NCBI RefSeq assembly: GCF_003058225.1
Contig: NZ_QBUG01000001.1
Location: 992,001-1,056,000 of the forward strand
Source: Promicromonospora sp. AC04
GTDB taxonomy: Bacteria > Actinomycetota > Actinomycetes > Actinomycetales > Cellulomonadaceae
Length of the DNA: 64,000 bases
Reading direction: 5' to 3'
The notes under the pieces are model-generated. The model was not told the origin of the DNA and searched no databases. It worked only from the letters and a program-made list of their open reading frames with translations. The translations under genes and the position numbers were made by a program. This document shows positions 14,568 through 56,399 of the stretch, piece after piece; the stretch's first letter is position 1, and every line of letters starts with the position of its first letter.

Positions 14568-15638
14568 CTACTGCACCACTGCGGGCAACAGGTCCATCGT
14601 GTCCTGGTTGGCGGCCAGGAAGTCCGGCACCTCGTCCTTCGCCACGGCCTGCATGAGCGGGTCGAACGCCGCACGGTCGAGCACGACTATCGACTGCCCG
14701 TCGGCGCTGCGTCCCGTGCCCGTGTAGGGGGCGGTCATGAACGCGATGTCGTTCGTCGAGATCTCCCGGGCGCTGTCGAACAGCTCTTGCATCTTGTCGA
14801 TGGTGAGCGCCTCGTCCACCGCCACCGAGCTGGTGACCGCCTCGAAGAAGCTCGTCATCTTCAGGGGGTCGCGCCGGTTGTTGTTGACCTTCGCGACGAT
14901 GGCCCGCATCCAGGCCTGCTGCCGCTGCACGCGGCCGAAGTCGCCGTTGGCCAGGGCGTGCCGCTCGCGCGTGAAGGCGAGCGCCTCCTCACCGGTCATC
15001 GCCTGCCGCACCGATCCGCCGGCGCCGTCGGGCACCGTGATCAGGACACCGTCCAGGGCGTCGGTGAGGGTCGTGAAGGACTCGAAGTCGGTCACCGCGA
15101 AGTGGTCGATGCGCACCCCGGTCAGGTCCTCGACCGTCTGGATCATCAGGGTGGGCCCCCCGTAGGAGAACGCGGCGTTGATCTTGGCCTCGCCGTAACC
15201 GGGGATGGGCACCCAGGAGTCGCGCGGGATCGAGATCGCCGCCGCTGTCTGCCGGTCGGCGGACAGGTGCACGAGCATGATCGCGTCGGTGCGCTGAGCC
15301 CCGGCCTCCCACGCCGACGGGTCGCCCGCCGAGATCCGGCTGTCGGAGCCGAGCACCAGGATGTTCACGGGCGCCGTCGGGCCCTCCGCGGGCGCGGCGC
15401 TGGGGCGCGTCGAGGGGTCGATCTCGGCGAACGGGTCGAGCCGTTCCACGTTGTCGTCGAGCGACATCCGGTAGCCGAAGTAGGCCGCGGTCGCGCCACC
15501 GCCGACGAGCAGGAGCGCGCCGGCGACGACCCCGGCGACGAATCCCTTGCTCCGGCGGGCACGTCGTGCGTGACGTAGGTCTCCGTCGACGGGGTTGGGT
15601 ACGGCGAGAAGATCGCCCATGCGATCGGGGGCAGCCAT
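14568..15638 (-). CDS. LytR-CpsA-Psr (LCP) family glycopolymer ligase, copy 1
   Basis: 356 aa. A short basic cytoplasmic N-terminus (DLRHARRARRSKGF) is followed by one membrane segment (about residues 34-54), then an extracytoplasmic LCP domain: NILVLGSDSRISAGDP, SIPRDSWVPIPGYGEAKINA, AFSYGGPTLM and RIDHFAVTDFESF. The conserved Asp/Arg residues that bind the polyprenyl pyrophosphate are present. LCP proteins move undecaprenyl-linked polymers onto peptidoglycan. A very similar full-length copy is at 50291-51370 and a decayed one at 38501-38630. It is divergent from the first glycosyltransferase of the polymer operon, so it probably attaches that operon's product to the wall. Confidence 0.9.
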   Translation of the reverse strand: MAAPDRMGDLLAVPNPVDGDLRHARRARRSKGFVAGVVAGALLLVGGGATAAYFGYRMSLDDNVERLDPFAEIDPSTRPSAAPAEGPTAPVNILVLGSDSRISAGDPSAWEAGAQRTDAIMLVHLSADRQTAAAISIPRDSWVPIPGYGEAKINAAFSYGGPTLMIQTVEDLTGVRIDHFAVTDFESFTTLTDALDGVLITVPDGAGGSVRQAMTGEEALAFTRERHALANGDFGRVQRQQAWMRAIVAKVNNNRRDPLKMTSFFEAVTSSVAVDEALTIDKMQELFDSAREISTNDIAFMTAPYTGTGRSADGQSIVVLDRAAFDPLMQAVAKDEVPDFLAANQDTMDLLPAVVQ

Positions 15639-15773
15639 GGTCGGTGATCTTAGTGGCGATTCCGACGCAAAAGTCTTCTACTACTCTGTGCCCTGCACCG
15701 CAACCGGAGACAGCCCTCAGGGCCGACGAGACGGTGGACCCTGACGAGCCGCCAGACAAAGAGGAGAGTCGCA
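15639..15773. promoter_or_regulatory. Divergent promoter region between LCP copy 1 and the polymer operon
   Basis: 135 bp serving both directions. TACTCT is a possible -10 for the rightward operon and AGGAGAG precedes GTG 15774 by 5 nt. The segment is repeated in altered form at 38631-38752, where CCTGCMCCGCAACCGGAGA and an AGGAGAATCGCA ribosome-binding site are kept, and its LCP-proximal part resembles 51371-51400. Exact promoter elements are uncertain. Confidence 0.4.
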
Positions 15774-54232: not shown

Positions 54233-55240
54233 CTACTGGCCGGTCGCCGCGTACTTCGCTTCAGTCGCAGCCTTCGCCCCCCGCCACCAGGCCTCGTGCT
54301 CCCGATACCAGTCGACGGTCGCCGCGAGCCCCTCACGGAAGTCCGTGTAGCTGGGCGACCAGCCCAGCTCGGTGCGCAGCCGCGAGGCGTCGATCGCGTA
54401 GCGCAGGTCGTGCCCGGCGCGGTCGGTCACGTGGTCGAAGTCGTCGGCGTCCCGGCCGAAGATCCCCAGGAGGGTCCGCACCACCTCGAGGTTGCTGGTC
54501 TCGCCGTCGGCCCCGATCAGGTACGTCTCGCCGATGGTGCCCTTCTCGATGATGCTCCAGACGGCCGCGTTGTGGTCCTCGACGTGGATCCAGTCGCGCA
54601 CGTTCAGGCCCGCGCCGTACAGGCGGGGGCGGACGCCGTCGATCAGGTTGGTGATCTGCCGCGGGATGAACTTCTCGATGTGCTGGTACGGCCCGTAGTT
54701 GTTGGAGCAGTTCGAGATGGTCGCCCGCACGTCGAAGGACCGCACCCAGGCCCGGACCATCAGGTCGGAGCCCGCCTTCGTCGAGGAGTACGGCGACGAC
54801 GGGTTGTACGGGGTCTCCGGCGTGAACCGCTCCGGGGAGTCCAGTGGGAGGTCCCCGTACACCTCGTCCGTCGAGATGTGGTGGAACCGCACGCCGTGCC
54901 TGCGCACCGCCTCCAGCAGCGTGAACGTGCCCACGAGGTTGGTCTGCACGAACGGCGAGGGGTCGTTCAGGGAGTTGTCGTTGTGCGACTCCGCCGCGAA
55001 GTGCACCACCAGGTCCGACTCCCCGACGAGCCGGTCCACGAGCGGCGCGTCGGTGATCGAGCCCACCACCAGCTCCACGCGGTCCGCGACCGGGTCGAGC
55101 GAGGTCCGGTCACCCGCGTAGGTCAGGGCGTCCAGCACGGTGACCCGCACCTCGGGGCGCTCCCGCACCGTCTGCTGCACGAAGTTCGCGCCGATGAAGC
55201 CGGCTCCGCCGGTGACCAGGACCCGCACCGGTTCAGTCAC
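54233..55240 (-). CDS. rfbB: dTDP-glucose 4,6-dehydratase
   Basis: 335 aa from GTG 55240, overlapping the ugd stop by 8 bp; a longer frame to 55324 lies inside ugd. NAD-binding [27 protein letters not shown], catalytic [11 protein letters not shown] and YSSTKAGSD, then [18 protein letters not shown] and [15 protein letters not shown], all RmlB signatures. It forms dTDP-4-dehydro-6-deoxyglucose from dTDP-glucose. Downstream of ugd and translationally linked to it, so GlcA and rhamnose precursors are made together. Confidence 0.95.
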
Positions 55241-56399
55241 GACCGTAGATGTCGCGCGTGTAGACCTTGTCGGCGACGTCGTCGAGCGCCCCGGTGCGGC
55301 GGTTCGCGATGATGACGTCGGCACGGGACTTGAGCTCGTCGAGGTCCCGGACCACCTCGGAGTGGAAGAACTCGTCCTCGTCCAGGGTGGGCTCGTACAC
55401 GATGACCTCGACGCCCTTCGCCTTGATGCGCTTCATGATGCCCTGGATGCTGGAGGCCCGGAAGTTGTCCGACCCGGCCTTCATCACCAGCCGGTAGACG
55501 CCCACGGTCTTCGGGCTGCGGCGCAGGATGTCGGCGGCCACGAAGTCCTTGCGGGTGGTGTTCGCGTCGACCACCGCGTTGATCAGGTTCTGCGGCACGT
55601 CCGCGTAGTTGGCCAGCAGCTGGCGGGTGTCCTTGGGCAGGCAGTACCCGCCGTACCCGAACGACGGGTTGTTGTAGTGCGACCCGATCCGCGGGTCCAG
55701 GCCCACACCCTCGATGATCTGCGCCGTGTCCAGCCCGCGGGTCACCGCGTAGGTGTCGAGCTCGTTGAAGTACGCGACCCGCAGCGCGAGGTAGGTGTTG
55801 GCGAACAGCTTGATCGCCTCGGCCTCGGTGGGGTCGGTCAGCAGCACCGGGACGTCCTTGGTGAGGGCGCCCTCCAGCAGGAGGTCCGCGAACTGCTTGC
55901 CGCGGTCCGACCGGTCGCCCACCACTATCCGGGACGGGTGCAGGTTGTCGTACAGCGCCCGCCCCTCGCGCAGGAACTCCGGGGAGAAGACGATCACCGC
56001 GCCCGGGCGCTCCTCGCGCACGCGCTCGGTGAACCCCACGGGGACCGTGGACTTGACCACTATCGTCGCCTCGGGCGCCCGGGCCTGGACGTCGTCGATC
56101 ACGGACTCCACCGACGAGGTGTCGAAGAAGTTGGTCACCTCGTCGTAGTTCGTCGGGGTGGCGATGACCACGACGCTCACGCCCGCGTATGCCGCGTCCT
56201 TGTCGAGGGTCGCGGTCAGGTTCAGCTCCTTGCCGGCGAGGTACTCCTCGAGCTCGGCATCGACGATCGGCGAGATCCGGTCGTTCACCTGCGCCACCTT
56301 GACCGGGTCCACCTCCACCGCCCACACCTCGTGGTTCTGGGCGAGCAGGACCGCGTTGGACAGACCGACGTATCCAGTGCCGGCGACAGCGATCTTCAC
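55233..56399 (-). CDS. ugd: UDP-glucose 6-dehydrogenase
   Basis: 388 aa from GTG 56399 (AGGAG 7 nt upstream); the frame is open to 56516 but without family residues. NAD site [20 protein letters not shown], then [34 protein letters not shown] and catalytic [19 protein letters not shown]. The short form with HPSRIVVG is the Ugd type seen in streptococcal and enterobacterial capsules and differs clearly from the two WecC proteins. Oxidises UDP-glucose to UDP-GlcA, adding a second uronic acid to the polymer's building blocks. Confidence 0.94.

Follow-up and report, generated by a model that had tools for sequence, protein, structure and literature searches.

A candidate cassette for a sulfated, pyruvylated wall glycopolymer with its own lyase, beside a second, export-less cassette, in Promicromonospora sp. 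AC04

A 64,000-nucleotide stretch of Promicromonospora sp. AC04 DNA (hereafter the window; positions 992001-1056000 of contig C1 in a genome of 6.85 Mb) carries four sulfotransferase-like genes (ST1 to ST4) among genes for the synthesis, export and wall attachment of a glycopolymer. The question raised by this locus is what such a combination produces, and whether all of it serves one sulfated, uronic-acid-rich wall polymer, as had been proposed in an earlier interpretation made without database searches (hereafter the sequence-only reading). Our analysis points to two cassettes. The first, cassette A, together with the neighbouring rhamnose (Rml) and UDP-glucose dehydrogenase genes, probably specifies a sulfated, pyruvylated, teichuronic-type acidic wall glycopolymer equipped with its own polysaccharide lyase, cassette B being a second, export-less one.

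Cassette A, its sulfotransferase-like genes and the probable supply of sulfate

Genes were called with a codon-usage gene finder, with approximate starts; it missed some genes, such as the adenosine 5'-phosphosulfate (APS) kinase in locus L072, and was weak in low-GC relatives. Family identity of window proteins was assigned from Pfam and NCBIfam scans judged against cut-offs, while genes in relatives were mostly labelled by BLAST against proteins of the window or of contig C18 of the same genome, without family scans. Cassette A (14.6-38.5 kb), which includes the family 8 polysaccharide lyase (PL8), and the sugar-precursor genes comprise the following features, where LCP stands for LytR-CpsA-Psr and GT for glycosyltransferase:

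14568..15638, minus strand: LCP-family wall-polymer ligase, copy A (Pfam LytR_cpsA_psr 8e-40)
15774..17084, plus: GT4 glycosyltransferase GT4a (Glyco_trans_1_4 2e-14)
17084..18838, plus: GT4 glycosyltransferase GT4b (Glyco_trans_1_4 1.3e-21; scan began at 17090)
18835..19734, plus: Wzm-type ABC permease (ABC2_membrane 8.4e-10)
19724..20851, plus: Wzt-type ABC ATPase (ABC_tran 2.5e-20; top NCBIfam model, teichoic acid export ATPase, below cut-off)
20848..22041, plus: WecB, UDP-GlcNAc 2-epimerase (TIGR00236, 463 vs cut-off 210 bits)
22038..23747, plus: ST1, fusion of DUF6270 and a sulfotransferase domain (DUF6270 8e-65; Sulfotransfer_3 6.6e-10; Sulfotransfer_1 3e-9)
23752..24429, plus: ST2, sulfotransferase (Sulfotransfer_3 1.4e-16)
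24398..25552, plus: ST3, sulfotransferase-like (no Pfam match up to E 0.05)
25592..27019 (start ~27019), minus: ST4, ST3 paralogue (no Pfam match up to E 0.05; 33% identical to ST3)
27016..28077, minus: GT4 glycosyltransferase GT4c (Glyco_trans_1_4 3.4e-10)
28079..29626, minus: polysaccharide pyruvyltransferase-like protein (PS_pyruv_trans 8.8e-12)
29626..32571, minus: protein with two GT2 domains (Glycos_transf_2 7.8e-64, two stretches)
32621..33874, minus: WecC copy A, UDP-ManNAc dehydrogenase (NF008286, 602 vs 459 bits)
33882..35834, minus: presumably CgeB-like/GT2 glycosyltransferase, copy A (Glyco_trans_1_2 8.4e-22)
36030..38465, plus: PL8 polysaccharide lyase (Lyase_8 7.2e-72; xanthan lyase 2e24 2.6e-142)
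51549..52475, plus: RmlA (TIGR01207 above cut-off)
52572..53450, minus: RmlD (TIGR01214 above cut-off)
53526..54140, plus: RmlC (TIGR01221 barely above cut-off, 156.3 vs 155.75)
54233..55228, minus: RmlB (TIGR01181 above cut-off)
55233..56399, minus: probable UDP-glucose 6-dehydrogenase (PRK15057 top, 619 bits, below its cut-off of 757; TIGR03026, 338 vs 190)

The gene inventory of the sequence-only reading is confirmed by these scans, at the coordinates it gave. The genes for N-acetylmannosaminuronic acid (ManNAcA; WecB, WecC), for rhamnose and for a UDP-galactopyranose mutase (UGM, in cassette B) pass NCBIfam cut-offs, and Wzm/Wzt, the two LCP proteins and the pyruvyltransferase-like protein are recovered by Pfam or NCBIfam. 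The proposed source of glucuronic acid (GlcA) passes a general nucleotide sugar dehydrogenase model and falls below the best equivalog model, that for UDP-glucose 6-dehydrogenase; the acyltransferase has a hexapeptide match that is weak and below cut-off. The locus pairs Wzm/Wzt with LCP genes, no Wzx/Wzy-type flippase or polymerase family being matched among the scanned locus proteins. Neither NeuB nor a cytidylyltransferase was matched among the scanned window proteins, and no Rfam family matched the window at gathering thresholds.

In the proposed route, WecB and WecC would give UDP-ManNAcA and the dehydrogenase UDP-GlcA, from which the GT4 and two-domain GT2 enzymes would build the chain. 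This chain would be pyruvylated and sulfated in the cytoplasm, the latter by up to four sulfotransferases dependent on 3'-phosphoadenosine 5'-phosphosulfate (PAPS), with PAPS supplied from CysD-CysN-APS kinase-CysQ genes on C18, then exported by Wzm/Wzt and linked to peptidoglycan by LCP enzymes. The PL8 enzyme may cleave that polymer, acting on an acidic residue by beta-elimination, as a means of trimming it or turning it over, and cassette B (38.5-51.4 kb, UGM-bearing) may make another polymer that leaves through the remaining Wzm/Wzt, or modify the same one.

All four sulfotransferase-like genes of the sequence-only reading are present where it had placed them, ST1 and ST2 by Pfam and ST3 and ST4 by motif, model and context. 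ST1 and ST2 pass the curated Sulfotransfer_3 cut-off (40 and 62 vs 27 bits). Among PDB sequences the C-terminal part of ST1 matches the sulfotransferase 3rnl (1.7e-6) and heparan sulfate 3-O-sulfotransferase 5 (3.9e-6), and ST2, short at 225 amino acids, matches sulfotransferases only, at E 0.6 and 0.98 (the latter a polyketide synthase entry). The DUF6270 domain, N-terminal in ST1, is predicted by a structure model to have an SGNH fold, and a GSC triplet is invariant in 12/12 DUF6270 sequences; SGNH/GDSL hydrolases carry the nucleophile block GDS(L). This domain occurs at 22038-22775 and 39169-39900, one copy being fused to a sulfotransferase and the other to a GT2.

ST3 and ST4 match no curated family (Pfam, up to E 0.05), and ST3 alone retrieved nothing from PDB sequences up to E 5. 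PAPS-dependent sulfotransferases have a 5' PAPS loop and a 3' R-x7-S motif; both are shared by ST3 and ST4, which are 33% identical, and both are kept in 24/24 aligned relatives, a count that rests on a chosen set because members were picked for frames with an N-terminus. This alignment (A1) comprises 20 frames from ST3-type loci, the two window proteins, L073 and L014; a frame was found in 29 of the 30 ST3-type loci (L023-L052; none in L043), and repeats (L023, L024, L038) and cut, fused or N-terminus-less frames (L040, L041, L044, L045, L046, L050) were left out. Weak matches to Sulfotransfer_4 occur in 8/24 aligned members (best 2.3e-4) and to Sulfotransfer_3 in 2/24 (best 3.4e-3). The structure search that the sequence-only reading had proposed gave a divided answer. 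With an ST3 model of low confidence, built on an alignment of three sequences, the best fold neighbours in VIA-align, which re-aligns Foldseek's best 1000 chains and does not cover other families, are heparan sulfate 3-O-sulfotransferases and N-deacetylase/N-sulfotransferase (NDST), at 11-14% identity. In Foldseek itself, with the same poor model, sulfotransferases appear with a probability of up to 0.99 but template-modelling (TM) scores of ~0.31, and none of 1199 matches falls under 1e-3. By motif, model and gene context, ST3 and ST4 are regarded as sulfotransferase-like.

Genes for PAPS supply were recognised on C18: an APS kinase (8.7e-58), CysN above cut-off, an adjoining PAPS_reduct-family protein taken as CysD, an Inositol_P-family protein split across two fetched stretches and taken as CysQ from its position, and also a TauE-type permease. 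A second PAPS_reduct match, which may be CysH or CysD, lies on contig C2.

Occurrence of the ST3 family follows that of APS kinase. In the taxonomic family, ST3-type genes occur in 25 of 221 genomes (6 of 25 genera; E 1e-5) and APS kinase in 55 (E 1e-30), and all 25 ST3-bearing genomes are among those 55 (Fisher 4.8e-18, a p-value inflated by kinship). The two genes share a contig in 19/25 and lie within 30 kb in 17, within 10 kb in 10 and within 2.5 kb in 7. In genus g4, the seven genomes with APS kinase include all five that bear ST3, and these five have both genes within 2.4 kb. The gene order in genome G042 is APS kinase, three ST3-type genes, CysQ, CysD, CysN and then LCP-like genes; here APS kinase, CysD and the three sulfotransferase-like genes were scanned, the last matching no Pfam family up to E 0.001. 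Class-wide, the ST3 family was found in 87/394 genomes (E 1e-10), with APS kinase in 82/87 of these vs 215/307 of the others (p 3.7e-7). Of 13 genomes of the genus, APS kinase is found in 13, the ST3 type in 3, PL8 in 8 and a C18-type sulfotransferase gene in 6.

The named relatives, over 10 loci, include P. umidemergens DSM 22081 (79%), P. panici (55%), Myceligenerans pegani (54%), Isoptericola chiayiensis (40%) and others. Three sulfation cassettes could be compared, those of the window and of two genomes of its genus, G191 and G195: ST1, ST2, ST4 and PL8 are present in 3/3 and ST3 in 2/3, being absent from G195. Ratios of nonsynonymous to synonymous substitution (dN/dS) against G191 and G195 are 0.15-0.36 for ST1-ST4, 0.35-0.37 for PL8, 0.19-0.29 for WecC and 0.41-0.59 for the pyruvyltransferase (where dS is small and the G191 frame was called short), with 0.20 for RmlB (G191 only). 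These values indicate that ST1-ST4 are under purifying selection. Among 14 ST3-bearing genomes with fetched surroundings, a pyruvyltransferase-like gene is there in 8, by BLAST. At two loci in relatives (L054:14597-16489 and L063:12839-15417), 2-3 extra genes, one of the GSCFA family, stand between ST2 and ST3/ST4; these were not found in the window cassette.

The PL8 lyase

The sequence-only reading had overlooked the lyase encoded at 36030-38465, which carries all three Lyase_8 domains and is the single Lyase_8 match in the whole genome (E 0.001). Its N-terminus contains a twin arginine (GRRQLL at residue 16), and the enzyme is probably exported because of it. Xanthan lyase 2e24 is its closest PDB sequence, followed by chondroitin AC lyase (5.7e-100) and then hyaluronate lyases. 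Opposite N194, H246 and Y255 of Bacillus xanthan lyase, which we take to be the catalytic Asn, His and Tyr of that enzyme, the alignment places N228, H278 and Y287 of the window protein; Y287 and the Bacillus numbers were counted by hand, with a presumed offset of 25. The xanthan lyase scores 479 bits, chondroitin AC lyase 339, an unnamed secreted lyase 288 and the chains with the name hyaluronate lyase at most 228, and the NCBIfam models for HylB and chondroitinase AC are far below cut-off; on these grounds, use of PL8 as a hyaluronan or chondroitin marker was rejected. The substrate of PL8 xanthan lyases, for most of those characterised, is pyruvylated mannose linked to GlcA, which they remove (PMC10881899), a preference that would fit a cassette with a pyruvyltransferase gene and a nearby UDP-glucose dehydrogenase gene.

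PL8 is found in 10/25 ST3-bearing genomes and in 29/221 overall (p 2.8e-4). Both relatives that have the cassette (G191, G195) have the lyase gene with it, though not at exactly the same place. The PL8 proteins of G184, G185 and G188, encoded outside the cassette, are 40-43% identical to that of the window. Those of G185 and G188 (L096:5122-11570, L098:8348-14908) lie a few kb from genes that, by eye, are relatives of a sulfotransferase pair on contig C4 of the AC04 genome (L020:7037-8805), possibly a further PL8-sulfotransferase neighbourhood.

Two cassettes in one window

The other feature overlooked earlier is an internal repeat. Several stretches within 38.5-51.4 kb have counterparts within 14.6-35.8 kb, at a DNA identity of 72-86%: 38553-39067 corresponds to 15558-16088 (72%), 39067-39138 to 21798-21869 (86%), 39130-39923 to 22000-22792 (82%), 46973-50073 to 32706-35793 (79%) and 50291-51284 to 14568-15558 (84%). 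The features of cassette B are:

38465..39172, plus strand: deletion scar, fusion of the start of GT4a and an end part of WecB (DNA self-comparison)
39169..41031, plus: DUF6270 and GT2 fusion (DUF6270 6.2e-65; Glycos_transf_2 1.6e-22)
41111..41836, plus: hexapeptide acyltransferase-like protein (Hexapep 9e-4; NCBIfam WbbJ 3.3e-12, both below cut-off)
41932..43119, minus: UGM (GLF 5.1e-83; TIGR00031, 338 vs 304 bits)
43133..45373, minus: protein with two GT2 domains (Glycos_transf_2 1.2e-67, two stretches)
45428..46903, minus: glycosyltransferase-like by eye, no family (only GDT1, below cut-off)
46900..48147, minus: WecC copy B (NF008286, 590 vs 459 bits)
48159..50069, minus: CgeB-like/GT2 copy B (79% DNA identity to copy A; without NCBIfam match)
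50291..51370, minus: LCP copy B (84% DNA identity to copy A; TIGR00350, 122 vs 62 bits)

In the open reading frame at 38465-39172, a stretch matching GT4a residues 1-114 is fused to one matching WecB residues 314-341; what would correspond to cassette A positions 16088-21798 (~5.7 kb: the rest of GT4a, GT4b, Wzm, Wzt and most of WecB) is gone. This junction indicates that cassette B lost its own export genes by deletion, and the strain has two cargoes but, in the window, one export system. The cargo of cassette B is lower in GC (0.645 vs 0.70).

Each cassette, or part of it, is met separately elsewhere. In G191, a genome of the same genus, cassette A and its PL8 gene are followed by LCP, Rml and dehydrogenase genes, and cassette B is absent. 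Puerhibacterium puerhi (L077) has relatives of the cassette B cargo (hexapeptide protein 67%, UGM 86%, two-GT2 protein 77%), and the gene finder called no ST3/ST4-like gene across the 20.7 kb covered; P. panici (L074) has the same frame with a different cargo. Given this shared frame with varying cargo, the arrangement LCP-GT4-GT4-Wzm-Wzt-WecB-DUF6270 ... WecC-CgeB looks like a cargo swap site. The assignment of all genes of 14.6-56.4 kb to one polymer, as in the sequence-only reading, was dropped because G191 has cassette A alone and P. puerhi has cassette B relatives with no ST3/ST4-like gene found; the UGM (galactofuranose-type) genes belong to the second cassette. The sulfated, uronic-acid-rich wall glycopolymer itself stays the best reading, strengthened by the PAPS genes, the linkage in relatives and the fold resemblance.

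Beyond both cassettes, a GT8 domain occurs in a large protein encoded at 58380-61088, whose N-terminal part is pyruvyltransferase-like by eye and matches no such family; the identity is 88% to its relative in G191 and 44% to that in G166.

Alternative explanations and known systems

Several observations weigh against a sulfated wall polymer made by cassette A and edited by PL8. A profile of ST3/ST4 run against PDB retrieved no sulfotransferase, only chance rows for HisF (E 0.17 and 0.63), and hhalign of this profile gave 72% to ST1 and 41% to the ST2 group. The first Foldseek rows with the poor ST3 model are ATP synthase subunits (TM ~0.15). The PAPS genes sit on a different contig from the cassette, the APS kinase test draws on genomes that are kin to one another, and 5/87 ST3-bearing genomes of the class (G234, G340, G350, G360, G528) have no APS kinase match, one of them being 100% complete. 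In 2/14 genomes (G199, G201), where gene finding was poor, no other polymer gene was labelled beside the ST3-type gene. PL8 was seen inside the cassette in only three (window, G191, G195) of the 10 ST3-bearing genomes with PL8, and it occurs elsewhere in the genus, in two genomes (G192, G187) in loci that look catabolic by eye. The sulfated polymer reported from P. citrea contains 2-keto-3-deoxynonulosonic acid (Kdn) and fits a locus on C18, treated below, better than the window.

The lyase is where an alternative has most to offer. It could be an ordinary catabolic xanthan or glycosaminoglycan lyase placed here by chance, as its nearest solved relatives are xanthan lyases and as the PL8 genes of G192 and G187, and of G137 and G145 in another genus, sit with sugar-transporter- and hydrolase-like genes (by eye). 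We consider this unlikely, if deserving of serious attention: in the window, G191 and G195 the PL8 gene is within the polymer cassette or next to it, and neither uptake nor glycosidase genes were recognised there; in G184 another PL8 gene adjoins a pyruvyltransferase-like gene and has a flippase gene three genes away. That the polymer is a sulfated capsule or exopolysaccharide, shed or held by lipid, with the two LCP genes serving another polymer, seems quite improbable to us; LCP enzymes attach many polymers and attachment cannot be read from sequence, yet LCP genes are found at the cassette border in the window, in G191 and in P. panici, LCP-like genes (33-35% identity) recur at the ST3-type loci of G029, G040 and G042, and the genus reports are of wall-bound anionic polymers (PMC6801904). 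Very improbable, in our judgement, is a main chain left unsulfated, with some of ST1-ST4 being inactive paralogues or having a lipid, a linkage unit or a small molecule as their substrate. For a single repeat unit four sulfotransferases is a large number, ST2 is short, and three Sulfotransfer_3 genes elsewhere on C1 (L016, L018, L019) adjoin P450-like genes (by eye) and perhaps serve small molecules; judged by eye only, the other Sulfotransfer_3 genes of the genome are unrelated to the polymer of this locus. Against this, ST1-ST4 are tightly packed (spacings of 4, -32 and 39 bases), abut GT4c and the pyruvyltransferase gene, are subject to purifying selection and, apart from ST3 in G195, stay with the cassette in relatives.

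Outside cyanobacteria, sulfated polysaccharides of the cell surface are described as rare. Cassette A is a compact Gram-positive cassette, kept in two relatives and containing a sulfotransferase-like family scarcely recognised by Pfam and tied to PAPS genes in other genera. Its genes are candidate new bacterial carbohydrate sulfotransferases and a lyase, and a genetic handle on sulfated, pyruvylated wall polymers known chemically from the genus. A wider reading, offered tentatively, is that Promicromonospora makes a covalent-wall counterpart of sulfated glycosaminoglycans, edited by its own xanthan/chondroitin-family lyase, and that ST3/ST4 represent a widespread actinobacterial carbohydrate-sulfotransferase family barely seen by domain models in the members scanned, in which case sulfated surface glycans would be common in Actinomycetes.

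C18 also carries a second Wzm/Wzt locus (L014:313-20000, L015:1-2662), beside the PAPS genes, with NeuB and a cytidylyltransferase. Two of its proteins were scanned as PS_pyruv_trans and a third is alike, and its sulfotransferase-like gene shares both motifs with ST3, to which it is 22% identical, and matches no Pfam family.

The sequence-only reading could name no described match. This stands for gene loci, none assigned to sulfated actinobacterial wall polymers having been found among the top 10 to 20 papers per literature search, subscription journals being little covered; chemically, sulfated and pyruvylated wall polymers have been reported from Promicromonospora. A review (PMC6801904; original work Dmitrenok 2017) describes two such polymers: that of P. 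citrea 665T is a Kdn polymer in which glucose is sulfated at position 3 and Kdn pyruvylated at 7,9, and that of Promicromonospora sp. VKM Ac-1028 consists of glucose and 4-linked GlcA with pyruvate at 2,3. A sulfated wall polymer is thus already known in the genus, and the window cassette is a further candidate, of ManNAcA/GlcA type. Between them, these polymers share genus, sulfate and pyruvate with the one proposed here, and 4-linked GlcA in VKM Ac-1028, whose polymer resembles a possible cassette A product before sulfation. The P. citrea polymer differs in its Kdn, the nonulosonate genes here being on C18 and not among the scanned window proteins, and looks like the product of a C18-type locus; neither ManNAcA nor a gene locus is mentioned for either polymer in the available part of the review.

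Further afield, the xss cluster for synechan in Synechocystis PCC 6803 likewise encodes a sulfated extracellular polysaccharide with two sulfotransferases, but of Wzx/Wzy type, no LCP, wall attachment or lyase being mentioned in the available part of PMC8205485, whose authors knew of no sulfotransferase genes in other bacterial extracellular polysaccharide clusters; by the count of a later review, sulfated polysaccharides have been reported from six bacterial genera (PMC11625862). Pontiella sulfatireligans has a putative cluster for a sulfated glycosaminoglycan-like exopolymer with a sulfotransferase gene among glycosyltransferases, but that product is N-sulfated and comes from Kiritimatiellae, not a Gram-positive wall polymer (PMC7356697). 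The PL8 xanthan lyases of Bacillus sp. GL1 and Paenibacillus, which the window PL8 matches over nearly its whole sequence, are catabolic (PMC10881899), whereas the window enzyme is encoded in a biosynthesis cassette with a pyruvyltransferase-like gene. Heparan sulfate 3-O-sulfotransferases and NDST, the best fold neighbours of the ST3 model and, with 3rnl, the best PDB sequence neighbours of ST1, differ in being eukaryotic Golgi enzymes of 11-14% identity in the ST3 alignments.

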